Shown here: positions 7,842 through 45,156 of the stretch, one piece after another
How the letters are laid out: each line of letters begins with the position of its first letter
How positions within the stretch are numbered: position 1 is the first letter of the stretch
DNA from: Methylosinus sporium
Lineage (GTDB): Bacteria > Pseudomonadota > Alphaproteobacteria > Rhizobiales > Beijerinckiaceae
Assembly (NCBI RefSeq): GCF_003113265.1
Contig: NZ_PUIV01000031.1
Coordinates: forward strand, 1-46,276
Length of the DNA: 46,276 bases
Direction of reading: 5' to 3'
Program-made: the position numbers and the translations under genes
The notes under the pieces: model-generated
Databases searched by the model: none
What the model saw: only the letters and a program-made list of their open reading frames with translations
Told to the model about the DNA's origin: nothing

Positions 7842-8435
7842 ATGCCCATTCTACGTTATTCCGCGGCTTCGCCCTACGCCCGCAAGTGCCGCATCGTCGC
7901 CGAGCTGCTCGGCTTCGGCGCGAGCGTCGAGCTCGTCGGCGCCGACACGACCAATCCCGAAGATTCGTTGCGCGCGCAAAATCCGCTCGGCAAGGTGCCG
8001 GTGCTCATCCTCGACAGCGGCGAGACCATCTATGACAGCCGCGTGATCTGCGAATATTTCGATCTTCTCGCCGGCGGCAAGCTCATTCCGCATGATCCCG
8101 CCGAACGAATCGCGGCGCTGACGCTGCAATCGCTCGGCGACGGCATGAACGACGCCGCGCTGCTGATCCGTTACGAAATCACACGGCCGGAGGCGCTGCG
8201 CTCCGCCGATTGGATCGCGCTGCAGACCGGCAAGCTCGACCGCGCTTTGTCGGCGCTCGACGCCGCGCCGCCGGCCGGCCCGGTGACGATCGGCCATGTG
8301 GCTGTCGCCGCCGCGCTCGGCTATCTCGATCTGCGCTTCGAAGGCGCCTGGCGCGCGAAATATCCCGCGCTCCTCGCCTGGCTCGACGCTTTTTCGCGCG
8401 AGGTTCCGGCCTTCGAGGCGACGCGCGTCGCCTGA
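7842..8435 (+). CDS. glutathione S-transferase-like protein
   Basis: 197 residues starting at an ATG with a GAGGGAG ribosome site; the much longer open frame from 7137 is antisense to the methyltransferase and was discarded. The N-terminal thioredoxin-like domain has YSAASPYARKCRIVAEL (Ser/Cys-bearing active helix), KVPVLIL with cis-Pro near 52, and SRVICEYFD for glutathione contact. The C-terminal helical domain is present but short. It resembles the YibF/stringent-starvation-like GST subgroup; the substrate is unknown. It is divergent from the methyltransferase and convergent with dnaB (7-bp gap). Confidence 0.82.
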   Translation: MPILRYSAASPYARKCRIVAELLGFGASVELVGADTTNPEDSLRAQNPLGKVPVLILDSGETIYDSRVICEYFDLLAGGKLIPHDPAERIAALTLQSLGDGMNDAALLIRYEITRPEALRSADWIALQTGKLDRALSALDAAPPAGPVTIGHVAVAAALGYLDLRFEGAWRAKYPALLAWLDAFSREVPAFEATRVA

Positions 8436-40228: not shown

Positions 40229-41494
40229 CTATTCCTCGCCGCGCTCCAGCAGCACATGCTTCTTCTTGCCGAGCGACAATTTGACGACTCCCTCGGAGAA
40301 ATCCTTCTCCGATAGCACGGCCTTCTCGTCCGTCACCGCAGCGTCATTGAGGCGCAAGCCGCCGGCCTTGATCTGCCGCCGCGCCTCGCCCGTGGAGGCG
40401 ACGAGCCCGGCTTTCACAAAGGCGGTGAGCACGCCGATCCCCGCCGCCACTTCGCTCGCCGTCACAGCGACCTTGGGCAGAGAAAGCGCCAGCGCGCCTT
40501 CCTCGAACGTGCGGCGCGCCGTCTCGGCGGCGAGCTCGGCCGCCTCGCGCCCATGCAGAAGCGCGGTCGCCTCGGTGGCGAGAATCTTCTTCGCCTCGTT
40601 GATCTCGGCTCCGCCGAGCGCGGCGAGCTTCTCGATCTCGTCCAGAGGCAGGAAGGTGAACAGCTTCAGGAAGCGGACGACGTCCGCATCCTCCGTATTG
40701 CGCCAATATTGCCAATAATCGTAGGGCGCGAGCATAGCGGCGTCGAGCCAGACGGCGCCCGCCGCCGTCTTGCCCATTTTGGCGCCGGAGGAGGTGGTGA
40801 GCAACGGCGCGGTCAGCGCATAGAGCTGATGCGTCCCGAGCCGGCGGCCGAGATCGACGCCCATGACGATGTTGCCCCATTGATCGGAGCCGCCCATTTG
40901 CAGGCTCGCGCCATAGCGCTTGGCGATCTCGACGAAATCATAGGATTGCAGGCACATATAGTTGAACTCGATGAAGGACAGCTCCTGCTCGCGCTCGAGC
41001 CGCAGCTTCACCGAATCCATCGACAACATGCGATTGACCGAGAAATGCCGGCCGACGTCGCGCAGAAAATCGATGTAATTGAGCTTGGTCAGCCATTCGG
41101 CGTTGTCGAGCAGAATGGCGTCGGTCTTGCCGTCTCCGAAGCTGAGGAATTTCGCGAAGGTCTTCTGGATCGCCGCCTTGTTGGAGTCGATCGTCTCGAT
41201 CGAGAGCAGCTTGCGGCTCTCGTCCTTGCCGGAAGGGTCGCCGACGCGCGTGGTGCCGCCGCCGACGAGCGGCAACGGCTTGCCGCCCGTGCGCTGGAGC
41301 CAGGAGAGCAGCATGATCGACAAGAGATTGCCGATATGCAGCGAGGCCGCCGTGCAGTCGAAGCCGACATAGGAAACCAGCTCGCCGGAGCGGGCCTTTT
41401 CATCCAGCCCCTCGAAATCGGAGCATTGATGCACGAAGCCGCGCGCGATGAGCGTCGCGAGGAATTCGGATTTGGGGCGGAATGCGTCGGACAT
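40229..41494 (-). CDS. tyrS: tyrosyl-tRNA synthetase
   Basis: 421 residues of class I TyrRS. Signature 1 is SLHIGN (HIGH-type), the tyrosine pocket region is [25 protein letters not shown], and the KMSKS equivalent reads [10 protein letters not shown]. The C-terminal S4 RNA-binding domain ([21 protein letters not shown]) ends the protein. It charges tRNA-Tyr. The mmoX transcript runs toward this gene on the same strand but should be stopped by the strong terminator about 100 bp upstream of the tyrS start. Confidence 0.97.
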
Positions 41495-41596
41495 GGGGGC
41501 AGGGTGTTACGGGGAAAGGGGGCCGGGCGCAAGGGTGGGGACGCGTTCGCGACGTCGGCCCGCGGCGCCCCCGACGATTTCGCGCTCCAGCCCACG

Positions 41597-41630
41597 AAAA
41601 AAGGCCCTCTGGAGAAAATCTCCAGAGGGC
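41597..41630 (-). terminator. mmoX intrinsic terminator
   Basis: A perfect 12-bp stem GCCCTCTGGAGA / TCTCCAGAGGGC with a 3-nt loop (41604-41630). On the minus strand it is followed by CC and six T residues (A-run 41597-41602). It lies about 180 nt past the mmoX stop and ahead of tyrS, so mmoX transcription should end here. Confidence 0.92.
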
Positions 41631-41756
41631 GAGTCTGTGAGGTCGAGAGTAGCGCTCGACAAGCCGAGCAGGGCGCGCGGGATGCGCAGCCAGCCGAGCC
41701 GGCCGAAAAGGCAATTCAGATTCTGAAGTTCTCGCGGGTCCTCCTGGAGGGGCTCT

Positions 41757-41784
41757 CTTCGCCGGGCGCGAGCGTCCGGCGAAG
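41757..41784 (-). other. stem-loop in the mmoX 3' region
   Basis: A 9-bp perfect stem CTTCGCCGG / CCGGCGAAG with a 10-nt loop, 23 nt after the mmoX stop codon and without a T-tract. It may stabilise the 3' end of the message, or be the scar of a former intergenic structure. Confidence 0.5.
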
Positions 41785-41806
41785 TCTTTGTTGCGACGGA
41801 AGAGGA

Positions 41807-43390
41807 TCAGCCGAACGCCGCCAGCGGATCGTGGAAGACGCAGCCGGCGCGCTCGATATCCTCGAGCGTCCACAAATTGTCGCCGCGCACATGCGGCTGC
41901 GCGATCAGCGTCTTGCCGTCCGAGCGCACGCCATGGCCTTCGGCGATGACGTCCGAAAGCTCGCGATCGAGATATTGCTCGAACAGATTCTGGGCCTCGT
42001 AGCGCTCAGGCTCCGACAACCACTGGCGCTCGCCCCAATCATCCGTCAGCGAGTGCTTTTTGCCATTGTATTCGTGCACGCGCAGCGAGCCGGAACCCTT
42101 GGCGAGCGTCGGGATGAACGGCACTTGCGACACGCGGTCGACATAGACCTCGTGTCCGTTCTGGAGCAGCCAAGCGTAGGGGACGAAGCCGCTCTTGGGA
42201 TCCTCGTAGCCGAGCCGCTTCCACTCATTGTAGATTTTGCCGTAGTGATCGGCCCAGCCGGGATAATTCGCCTCGAACCATTCCTGATCCTGCTCGTCCG
42301 GCAGCGAGACGCGCGAGAAGCCGAGCGGCCACAGAGCGAAAGCGGCCAGCGCCAGATCGTGATGGGCCCAATAGGCGTCGCGCTTGGCGTCGCGCAGCGA
42401 AGCCGGGCTCTCGACGCCGTATTTACCGAGACGTCCGATCCAGATTCCACCCCAATCCTCATAGACCCAGCGGTTCCAGGTCTTCACCCAGGGCTCGACC
42501 TTGAACTTGGAGCCATATTCGAACAGATAGCCGAGCGCCGGCGTGAAATATTTCTGCTGCGTCCAGAAGGCGTTGTTGAGATCGGTGTTGAGATATTTGG
42601 CCGCCGCCGGATCATTGGCGATCGAGACGATCGTCTGATAGCCGTTGGCCATATGGCGCAGTTCGTCCGTCTCGATCGAGAGGAAAACCGTCGGCGTGAT
42701 CTCGTCGCCATTGGCAGCAGCCCATTCCGTCACCGCGACAATCAGCGGATTGGTGAAGCAGGCTTCGCCGACGAGCTGCAGATTGATCGAGCATTCCACG
42801 GCGTCGCCGGAGATGAATCCGTCGGAGAAGACGCGCTTCATGCCCTTCCACAGCGGGCCGATGGCGCGCGTGCGGCGCGCGTCATTATGGCCGGCCGGAT
42901 CGTGATAGTGCTTGGAATAATAGTGGTTGATGAATGCGCATTGATGCGTGTGACGAATCTCGTCGAGCACCTGCGCGAGATAGCCGTTCTTCTGCTCTGC
43001 GGCGGTGGCCGAATCCCACAGCATCGCCGAACCGGAGATCGCATTATATTCGCCGACCTCGAGGAAGTTCGAGATCACCTTCATCGTCTCGCCCCAGCGA
43101 GGATGAATCTTATTGCCGGCGCCGAGGCGCGTGAGTCCGTCGAGCAGCGTGCCGAACTGCCGCTCGTCCTTGGCCGCCTCCATGCGGGCGTATTCCTTGG
43201 CGATGACCTTGAACTGCTCCTTGGTCTGGTTCGCCATACGGTATTTGGTCGCGTATTTCGTACGATTTTGCTTGAAGTCCCAATTGAAGCTCTGCAGCCA
43301 TTTATGGACTTCCTGCGGCTCGATTCCGACCGGCGCGCGATTGACCTTCAACGCGTCGGTCGCCGCATTGGTTGCGAGACTGATAGGCAT
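41807..43390 (-). CDS. mmoX: orphan soluble methane monooxygenase alpha subunit
   Basis: 527 residues, one more than I recall for Methylosinus trichosporium MmoX. The start ATG (MPISLATNAATDALKVN) has GGAGGAATC before it; the 57-codon upstream extension is not coding. MmoX holds the diiron site of the (alpha-beta-gamma)2 hydroxylase that turns methane into methanol. Ligands fall at the classical positions: E114, E144 and H147 (LDEIRHTH), E209 (VGEACFT), E243 and H246 (ETDELRHM); C151 and T213 are also kept. No mmoY, mmoB, mmoZ, mmoD or mmoC is present; tyrS lies downstream after a terminator. A sigma-54 promoter lies upstream. Without beta and gamma partners made elsewhere it cannot form an active hydroxylase. 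The frame is intact, arguing for selection or a recent duplication. Confidence 0.97.
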   Translation of the reverse strand: MPISLATNAATDALKVNRAPVGIEPQEVHKWLQSFNWDFKQNRTKYATKYRMANQTKEQFKVIAKEYARMEAAKDERQFGTLLDGLTRLGAGNKIHPRWGETMKVISNFLEVGEYNAISGSAMLWDSATAAEQKNGYLAQVLDEIRHTHQCAFINHYYSKHYHDPAGHNDARRTRAIGPLWKGMKRVFSDGFISGDAVECSINLQLVGEACFTNPLIVAVTEWAAANGDEITPTVFLSIETDELRHMANGYQTIVSIANDPAAAKYLNTDLNNAFWTQQKYFTPALGYLFEYGSKFKVEPWVKTWNRWVYEDWGGIWIGRLGKYGVESPASLRDAKRDAYWAHHDLALAAFALWPLGFSRVSLPDEQDQEWFEANYPGWADHYGKIYNEWKRLGYEDPKSGFVPYAWLLQNGHEVYVDRVSQVPFIPTLAKGSGSLRVHEYNGKKHSLTDDWGERQWLSEPERYEAQNLFEQYLDRELSDVIAEGHGVRSDGKTLIAQPHVRGDNLWTLEDIERAGCVFHDPLAAFG

Positions 43391-43536
43391 GATTCCTCCG
43401 CTGGACTTTATCTTGTGACGTCGCTTCATTCGCGGCTGCCGCACGCGTGGCGGGCGCGCTTCGCAAAGCAAAGCGCGACACGCCGACGCTCTTGCGGTCC
43501 AAAGACCAGAAACAGTTTCGACGTCGGTTCTTTCAC

Positions 43537-43552
43537 AGCAAGGTGTGTGCCG
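43537..43552 (-). promoter_or_regulatory. sigma-54 promoter of mmoX
   Basis: The minus strand reads CGGCACACACCTTGCT: GG (-24) and GC (-12) are separated by exactly 10 nt, matching TGGCAC-N5-TTGCW at all but the first base. Predicted start is near 43526, giving a leader of about 135 nt. sMMO operons are transcribed from sigma-54 promoters just ahead of mmoX, so this fits the family. Confidence 0.85.
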
Positions 43553-43560
43553 TAATTCCA

Positions 43561-43860
43561 TGGTGACAGAAAAACGAAGCTATCATGCGGTGTCAGCAGA
43601 ATATTTGTGCTTAAATAAAAGACATTTTCGGAAACATATAATACGATAGCATAGATACAGAACGTAAAAATTCATGCATACATGAAACTATGCGATAGTT
43701 GATATTATAATCAGAGATTTAAATCAAGTCTCATATTAGAATATTTTAATATCATATTTATGCGGTTCGGCGCGCCACCACGCGACATGTGACGAATTGC
43801 TGAATTGACGCCGAATTGGCGATTCGTGGCTCGCTCGCGATCAGAGTCTCGTCGTCGCCA
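43561..43860. promoter_or_regulatory. AT-rich mmoX upstream region with enhancer-like inverted repeats
   Basis: About 200 bp, strongly AT-rich against a GC-rich genome, with no coding frame. It holds two adjacent inverted repeats: TTCATG-CATA-CATGAA (43671-43686) and AACTAT-GCG-ATAGTT (43686-43700). They lie about 120-150 bp upstream of the -24 box, the usual distance for a sigma-54 activator (MmoR in sMMO clusters). The divergent lipase promoter must also lie here or just beyond. Confidence 0.6.
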
Positions 43861-43920
43861 TGACGCGTGACGCTCTTCCTGCTAGCTTGCGGGTCACCGC
43901 GATCGACGAGGCGGGTGTCG

Positions 43921-45156
43921 ATGAAGTCGAGCTATGTCGTTTTCGTCCATGGCCTGATGGGATGGGGGCCGAATGATCTCGGCGGGCTTCCTTATTGGGG
44001 CGACGCTCCGGCGCAATTTGCGCCGCGCTTTCGCACCCATCTCGCCAAATGCGGGCCGCTCAATTCGGTCCATGATTGCGCCTGTGAGCTATTCGCGCAG
44101 ATCGTCGGCGCGCGCATCGATTATGGCGAGAGCCATAGTGCGCAGGCCGGCCATGCGCGTTTCTCGCGCGATTATGCCGGCCGCGGCTTCATCGATGGCT
44201 GGTCGGCCGACAATCCGGTGATACTGATCGGCCACAGCGCCGGCGCTCAGACTTGCCGGATGCTGCAATATCTTCTGGCTCGGGATTTCTGGGGCGTCGG
44301 CTCCAGCGCCGATTGGGTGGAGGCGATCGTCGCCATCTCCGGCCCGCTCAATGGCTCGACGCTCGCCTATCGTTATTGCGACGAAGAGCAGGGCAAGCCG
44401 AAACTGCTGCCGAGCGCGCTGGTCGCCGGCGCGCTCGCTGTCGTTTCTGCTTTGTCCAGCGTCGGGGCGTCGCGCCTCTATGATCTGCATCTCGATCATT
44501 GGGCGCATGAGCACGACAATGGCGAAGCGTTCCTGAGGCGCTTGGATGCGACCCGCTTCGTCGAGAGCGGCGACAATCTCGGCTTCGACGTCACCTTGCA
44601 CGGCGCCGCGCGCCTCAATCAGACGATGGAGACATTCGAGAATTGTCTCTATCTCGCATTGGTTTCCTCCGCGACGCGCGAGGGACGGTTTTTGAATTTG
44701 CCGTTTCTGAGCGCGCGGCATCGCCACGATCGCACCATGGATCTGACGATGCGGGACTCGGCCGCCTATATCGCGACACGGCCCGAGTTTTCGGCGCCTC
44801 CGACGCCGGATTGGGGAAGCGGCGATTTGACGATGACGCTCTGGCGAGAGAACGACGGCGTGGTCAATACGATTTCGCAGCGCTATCCGTTCATCGGCCG
44901 CGCGCATCCGGTCGGCGGCGAAGGGATATTCGGTTTCGAGGATCGCATCGAGCCCGGCCAATGGCGCTGGCATCGGCTCGACGAAATTTTCGGGCGGTCC
45001 TTCGACCACAATGACGCGATGCATGGCGCGCGCATGAAGCCTTTCGAGAAGGGCCGGAGGGAGGCGCAAAGGGAACTCTATCGAAAGATCGCCGATTTTT
45101 TTGCGGCGTTCGATGCATCGCGTGACGAAACGATCGTTCGAAGGCAAATTGTATAA
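43921..45156 (+). CDS. family I.5-like lipase (alpha/beta hydrolase)
   Basis: 411 residues from ATG 43921 (GAGGCGGG upstream). A GTG at 43867 would add 18 residues resembling a lipobox (LLAC) but has no ribosome site. It aligns by eye to Geobacillus/staphylococcal-type lipases: FVHGLMGWG, CGPLNSVHDCACE, DYGESHSAQAGHARFSR, nucleophile S106 in GHSAGAQ, YDLHLDHW, LNQTMETFEN, D312 in ENDGVVNT and H363 in FDHNDAMH. The structural zinc ligands of that family correspond to D52, H72, H78 and D192 and are all present. No signal peptide is seen with this start. It is divergent from mmoX across an AT-rich control region; a functional link is unproven. Confidence 0.85.
   Translation: MKSSYVVFVHGLMGWGPNDLGGLPYWGDAPAQFAPRFRTHLAKCGPLNSVHDCACELFAQIVGARIDYGESHSAQAGHARFSRDYAGRGFIDGWSADNPVILIGHSAGAQTCRMLQYLLARDFWGVGSSADWVEAIVAISGPLNGSTLAYRYCDEEQGKPKLLPSALVAGALAVVSALSSVGASRLYDLHLDHWAHEHDNGEAFLRRLDATRFVESGDNLGFDVTLHGAARLNQTMETFENCLYLALVSSATREGRFLNLPFLSARHRHDRTMDLTMRDSAAYIATRPEFSAPPTPDWGSGDLTMTLWRENDGVVNTISQRYPFIGRAHPVGGEGIFGFEDRIEPGQWRWHRLDEIFGRSFDHNDAMHGARMKPFEKGRREAQRELYRKIADFFAAFDASRDETIVRRQIV

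Follow-up and report, generated by a model that had tools for sequence, protein, structure and literature searches.

The soluble methane monooxygenase (sMMO) is usually regarded as one operon with a fixed set of subunits. For Methylosinus sporium a second mmoX has been described (Ali et al. 2006, Microbiology 152:2931, known here by its title as cited in an excerpt of PMC4036023). A stand-alone methane monooxygenase subunit gene is also found in M. trichosporium OB3b, where an orphan pmoC2 lies beside full operons (excerpt of PMC3615186); unlike the gene treated here it belongs to pMMO and is thus part of another enzyme and another subunit. In an excerpt of PMC12727199, Table 2c has the entry "mmoXYZ 2" for strain 5 and for 7 out of 7 isolates from rice that were placed in M. 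sporium, with the doubled gene unspecified. The literature that we searched, with the 2006 paper outside it, contained no report that we saw of an ortholog of the second mmoX or of its ancestry, and we do not claim that these are unpublished.

Here we analysed a DNA stretch of 46 kb (46,276 nucleotides, called the window), which is one entire contig (C35) of genome G000 and carries an orphan mmoX, in the following mmoX2. A preceding sequence-only reading of this DNA (the earlier note) had stated that a second mmoX outside the operon is known in M. sporium, and the 2006 title agrees with this. The orphan is very probably the copy 2 published in 2006, because the operon proteins MmoX1, MmoY and MmoD of the same genome (see below) place it in the same species, in which both are the second mmoX. 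The gene is already known; the analysis adds an ortholog, the selection acting on the gene, the conservation of its promoter region, an old split from the operon copy and a parallel in the Methylophilaceae. In the 2006 work both mmoX copies were reportedly transcribed, only copy 1 is said to be needed for sMMO activity, and horizontal transfer is said to have been discussed. We rather favor the reading that mmoX2 is a maintained, second, stand-alone alpha subunit of M. sporium which split long ago from mmoX1, has its own sigma54 promoter and assembles with MmoY and MmoZ from the operon.

An intact mmoX apart from the sMMO operon

The gene is located on the minus strand between tyrS and a gene for a lipase-like hydrolase:

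40229..41494, minus strand: tyrS, downstream neighbor (open reading frame)
41807..43390, minus strand: mmoX2, sMMO hydroxylase alpha subunit, intact, 527 aa (open reading frame, PF02332, identity to MmoX1, ligands)
43394..43399, minus strand: GGAGGA ribosome-binding site, 3 nt 5' of the ATG (read from the sequence; also in the copy of the second species)
43867..45156, plus strand: lipase-like hydrolase, divergent upstream neighbor, start perhaps at 43922 (open reading frame)

The claim of the earlier note that an intact MmoX of 527 residues with six diiron ligands is encoded here was borne out by the reading frame, the family match and the alignment. The frame (43390..41807) starts with ATG and is uninterrupted by stop codons over 527 aa. 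Its product is a member of the diiron monooxygenase family PF02332 (168.6 bits, cut-off 24.4) and contains all six ligands, E114, E144, H147, E209, E243 and H246 (numbering for MmoX from an excerpt of PMC13045389). Compared with other soluble diiron monooxygenases it stands nearer to MmoX, with 1184.6 bits to MmoX1 and 65.1 bits to the best phenol hydroxylase chain. NCBIfam had no match for either MmoX copy and was uninformative.

No other sMMO gene had been seen nearby in the first reading. A tblastn analysis of the window with mmoR, G, X, Y, B, Z, D, C and one flanking open reading frame as queries (E up to 1e-8) likewise matched mmoX alone; on the 2.9-kb side of mmoX2 the sequence stops at the end of the contig. 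At the syntenic locus (19 kb) in a second Methylosinus species (G151), the same queries again matched mmoX alone. The gene order of an sMMO operon, mmoX followed by mmoY, B, Z, D and C, is therefore not present at mmoX2. An assembly artefact is unlikely: G151 holds the same gene between the same neighbors, and the synteny of its locus speaks against a misassembly at 41.6-41.8 kb, which had been named as a possible objection.

A complete operon, mmoX-Y-B-Z-D-C, for which a search of the remaining genome had been proposed, is located on contig C7, with a second mmoX (mmoX1) as its first gene. Upstream of mmoX1 there are a GroEL-like gene and a gene for a sigma54 activator, which we take to be mmoG and mmoR. 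The genome contains one copy of mmoY, and the operon carries both mmoY and mmoZ, whose absence from the whole genome would have spoken against the first reading. MmoX1 (526/526), MmoY (395/395) and MmoD (105/105) are identical to chains of PDB entry 6d7k, and the alpha chain of 8XIW and 8YRD, both from M. sporium 5 (excerpt of PMC13045389), has the sequence of MmoX1 as well. The identity to the PDB chains indicates M. sporium as the origin of the window, either strain 5 itself or a very near strain. The MmoX2 chain is absent from all four PDB entries with the MmoX1 sequence (6d7k, 8xiw, 8yrd and 9l2i). Compared with this alpha subunit of the strain 5 hydroxylase, MmoX2 shows 93% identity over 526 aa and has the same ligands and the same MMOB-contact residues, but it differs by 37 substitutions, by the lack of mmoY to mmoC downstream and by the age of the split. 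Within the operon, mmoD (operon locus 8079-8393) evolves more rapidly than the genes mmoX, Y, B, Z and C; its omega for G000 against six further Methylosinus genomes is 0.22-0.43, and mmoR behaves similarly.

An ortholog in a second species and the conserved residues of MmoX2

The mmoX2 ortholog of G151 encodes a protein with 98% aa identity and occupies the same place between tyrS and the lipase-like gene, and positions 40242-43761 of the window align to this genome as one block. Eight of the 10 Methylosinus genomes contain mmoX, and two copies were found in two of them (G000 and G151). Among the Methylocystis genomes 7 of 39 have mmoX and none of the 39 has two copies. Judged by the identity of tyrS to that of G000, the genomes G042, G146 and G149 (95-96%) are all nearer to G000 than G151 (90%), and mmoX2 is absent from these three closer relatives, which points to losses there or to a transfer between lineages.

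The slot beside tyrS (41495-43866 of the window) varies within Methylosinus and contains mmoX2, a receptor-like open reading frame, another open reading frame or nothing. Without mmoX2 between them, the blocks of tyrS and the lipase are 44 nt apart in G105. A long receptor-like frame (named by eye) is located beside tyrS in G146 and G149, and G042 has another open reading frame there.

For the comparison of residues 93 MmoX proteins were gathered, of which 78 distinct sequences (2 MmoX2, 76 others) were retained; loci with a match of about 480 residues at most, or interrupted by a stop codon, were excluded, except for the fragment of G150 discussed below. At sites with at least 96% conservation across the 76 other MmoX, both orthologs share the changes V23I, A119S, A120G, Y351F and C466A, the second and third of which are located five and six residues past the ligand E114. 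The exchange G475D occurs only in the M. sporium protein of the two orthologs, at a site with G in 75 of 75 others. This results in six changes at conserved sites in G000 and five in G151 compared with 0-2 in the operonic MmoX of Methylosinus and Methylocystis, which suggests that MmoX2 is somewhat less constrained than its near kin, or altered; 9 of the 78 sequences exceed MmoX2 in this count.

The five shared changes could be taken as signs of a specialised alpha subunit, with a different substrate range or different kinetics, or of a decoy that titrates MmoB or MmoD. We consider such a role unlikely. A119S and A120G occur together also in fen921. Positions 110, 151, 188, 192, 213, 217 and 289 are identical to those of MmoX1, and all of these except 151 are pocket residues. 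In addition, N214, V218, E222, E240, T241 and R333, named as MMOB contacts in an excerpt of PMC13045389, are unaltered in MmoX2. The unaltered contacts favor an ordinary alpha subunit that would still dock MmoB.

Flanking elements and selection

Four elements were found in the sequences next to the gene:

41604..41630, minus strand: predicted intrinsic terminator with a 12-bp stem and T6, between mmoX2 and tyrS (hairpin scan; conserved in G151 apart from two changes in one arm)
41757..41784, no strand assigned: hairpin 3' of the mmoX2 stop codon, on the minus strand CTTCGCCGGACG-CTCG-CGCCCGGCGAAG, with one A.C mismatch (by eye)
43538..43552, minus strand: sigma54 -24/-12 type site CGGCAC-N5-TTGC, 148 nt 5' of the mmoX2 ATG (motif fit and conservation)
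43601..43800, no strand assigned: upstream AT-rich region with a GC content of 0.28 and 0.36 (per 100 nt); in part kept in G151

The sigma54-type site matches the RpoN motif YGGCR-N6-TTGC of M. sporium 5 (excerpt of PMC12403871); the RNA-seq and start-site data of that paper come from cultures with 10 uM Cu. Between G000 and G151 a block around CGGCAyrCrCCTTGCTGTGAAAGA is kept while the surroundings drift. In an alignment of eight selected upstream regions (2 of mmoX2, 2 of Methylosinus mmoX1, 4 of Methylocystis; a selection and not an exhaustive set), GG-N10-GC is aligned in all eight, which agrees with the sigma54 -24/-12 site expected for a member of the RpoN/MmoR regulon, and outside the region of the translation start the fully invariant positions are those of GG...TTGC. 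The motif as such is not rarer than chance: with up to one mismatch TGGCAC-N5-TTGC occurs once in the window, at mmoX2, compared with 2.2 sites expected by chance, and the looser RpoN motif occurs seven times compared with 4.5 expected. The identification as a sigma54 promoter is therefore derived from conservation and position and not from the rarity of the motif. The AT-rich stretch further upstream is a candidate region for the binding of an activator. By analogy with the sMMO operon, control of mmoX2 by MmoR and copper may be expected, and a sigma54 promoter of its own probably drives the gene at low copper, along with the rest of the sMMO regulon.

Downstream of the gene, the scan for terminator-like structures yielded five sites in the region compared with 2.5 expected. 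The hairpin next to the stop codon resembles, as judged by eye, the hairpins in the mmoX-mmoY spacers of two Methylocystis operons (G153 and G155), and the alignment of mmoX2 to G153 extends 47 nt beyond the stop codon. With this hairpin and the extended alignment, mmoX2 has the appearance of a fragment from the 5' end of an sMMO operon. A possible remnant of the mmoY ribosome-binding site behind mmoX2 is only faintly discernible and is not counted here.

The comparison of dN and dS suggested in the earlier note was carried out according to Nei-Gojobori. Between the mmoX2 genes of G000 and G151 dN was 0.0104, dS 0.198 and omega 0.053; the corresponding values for mmoX1 of the same two genomes were 0.0053, 0.163 and 0.033, and for mmoX1 against mmoX2 within G000 0.043, 0.509 and 0.084. 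The neighboring genes have a higher dS between G000 and G151 (tyrS 0.366, lipase 0.463), which indicates slow synonymous change in mmoX2, as in mmoX1. The codon adaptation index, calculated with 24 ribosomal and translation open reading frames as reference and a crude background list, was 0.716 for mmoX2, 0.765 for mmoX1, 0.687 for tyrS and 0.501 for the lipase.

Judged by these values mmoX2 looks like a gene in use and not like one in decay. A non-functional gene on its way to decay would be in line with the patchy presence of mmoX2, with the exchange G475D and with the genetics, in which copy 2 is reportedly dispensable. An insertion in mmoX1 might, however, be polar on mmoY to mmoC, and older mutants may then say little about mmoX2. 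The omega of 0.053 over a dS of 0.2, the intact frame in two species, the conserved elements upstream and downstream and the high codon adaptation index argue against it, and we regard decay as distinctly improbable. The assumption of the first reading that the gene is still expressed is thus supported indirectly by low omega, codon bias and the conserved sigma54-type site and terminator; expression itself is what these sequence features suggest.

Ancestry and possible role of mmoX2

Trees were calculated from 26 selected mmoX genes using nucleotides, proteins and codon positions 1+2. Both mmoX2 genes group with the single mmoX of Methylocystis G153, an operon copy, with a support of 87 (nucleotides), 95 (proteins) and 87 (codon positions 1+2). 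In general, the trees intermix operons of Methylosinus and Methylocystis, which suggests transfer of operons between the genera. A fragment from G150/FeB_33 (95% to mmoX2, residues 1-394) was considered as another orphan, but mmoG and mmoR are located upstream, which makes it part of an operon that is truncated by the contig end.

The identity of 93% to MmoX1 within the same genome and the title of 2006, which mentions a duplication, would at first sight fit a recent duplicate of mmoX1 that was retained for dosage. AU tests with nucleotides rejected a grouping of mmoX2 with five Methylosinus mmoX1 (p 5.3e-9), with all Methylosinus mmoX1 (p 6.8e-4) and separate duplications in G000 and G151 (p 2.8e-67). 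With proteins the first two groupings were not rejected (p 0.0585 and 0.148), which leaves some room for such an origin. The dS of 0.51 between mmoX1 and mmoX2 exceeds the largest value among the Methylosinus mmoX1 genes (0.375), and the split is therefore older than the divergence of these mmoX1 genes. A recent duplication is accordingly very improbable. With regard to gene conversion between mmoX1 and mmoX2, mmoX2 of G000 is overall no nearer to mmoX1 of G000 than mmoX2 of G151 is (88.5% and 89.0% nucleotide identity). The earlier note had called the gene probably a duplicate; it is indeed a second mmoX of the genome, but not a recent copy, and the nucleotide tests, though not the protein tests, reject a descent from Methylosinus mmoX1.

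Other groupings left more room. A clade of mmoX2 with all Methylosinus and three Methylocystis mmoX passed the AU test (p 0.089 for nucleotides, 0.356 for proteins), a group of mmoX2, G153 and G150 was about equal to the best tree (p 0.366 and 0.252, respectively), and a position of mmoX2 inside the wider mmoX1 clade was marginal (p 0.053). In the protein trees the G150 fragment, which is of the Methylosinus type, adjoins mmoX2 and G153. Taken together, these results and the protein AU tests weaken the case for a horizontal gain. Instead, mmoX2 might be an old paralog, or all that is left of an older sMMO operon after loss or replacement of its other genes, without having been gained horizontally itself. 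The wider clade, the position of G150 and the intermixed operons of both genera are in favor of this origin, and the absence of mmoX2 from G042, G146, G149 and G105 is consistent with losses; the support for the grouping with Methylocystis G153 argues against it. We give the old paralog a chance that is not far below even.

In our preferred reading mmoX2, which parted from mmoX1 before the compared Methylosinus mmoX1 genes diverged, is a piece of promoter, mmoX and the beginning of the mmoX-mmoY spacer that sits in the variable slot beside tyrS and would have been kept functional. As its source we prefer a horizontal gain from a Methylocystis-like organism, with about even chances in relation to the old paralog. 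MmoX2 would join MmoY and MmoZ encoded by the operon, either as a further alpha subunit or as an alternative to MmoX1.

A mmoX without an adjoining mmoY was rare among the loci on genome contigs. In 67 of 72 cases mmoY follows directly downstream, two loci are cut by the end of a contig, and the three without mmoY in this position are all located on one 2.0-Mb contig (JABFRO010000001.1) of the Methylophilaceae MAG P-RSF-NP-02. This contig carries four mmoX: two in tandem (mmoX-mmoX') that open the operon, and two orphans. The latter encode identical proteins, lie in a 2343-bp repeat (99.66%), one end of which is within a neighboring gene, and each has a sigma54-type site 137 nt upstream. They resemble mmoX2 in that mmoX stands alone with a sigma54-type site while the operon is elsewhere. 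In contrast to mmoX2, the copies of the MAG are recent (97-100% aa identity to each other) and include a tandem copy in the operon, and they represent an independent event seen in a MAG only. If the MAG contig is sound, a stand-alone mmoX with a sigma54-type site would have arisen at least twice.

A more far-reaching idea, which we regard as rather doubtful, is that a foreign alpha cassette of the Methylocystis type is interchangeable with respect to the resident beta and gamma subunits, MmoB and MmoC, resulting in mixed or alternative hydroxylases at low copper. Cassettes with only the alpha gene and a sigma54 site would then be a recurrent means, in Methylosinus and in Methylophilaceae, of diversifying or boosting sMMO.

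A second alpha subunit that is maintained would amount to a natural subunit swap in the species from which MMOH structures have been obtained. This affects the interpretation of purified M. sporium MMOH, which might contain mixed alpha subunits, that of mmoX knock-outs and that of amplicon surveys of mmoX, in which one genome gives two mmoX types. In a genome of another genus (G144) three mmoX-like genes were observed, one of them 67% identical to mmoX2.
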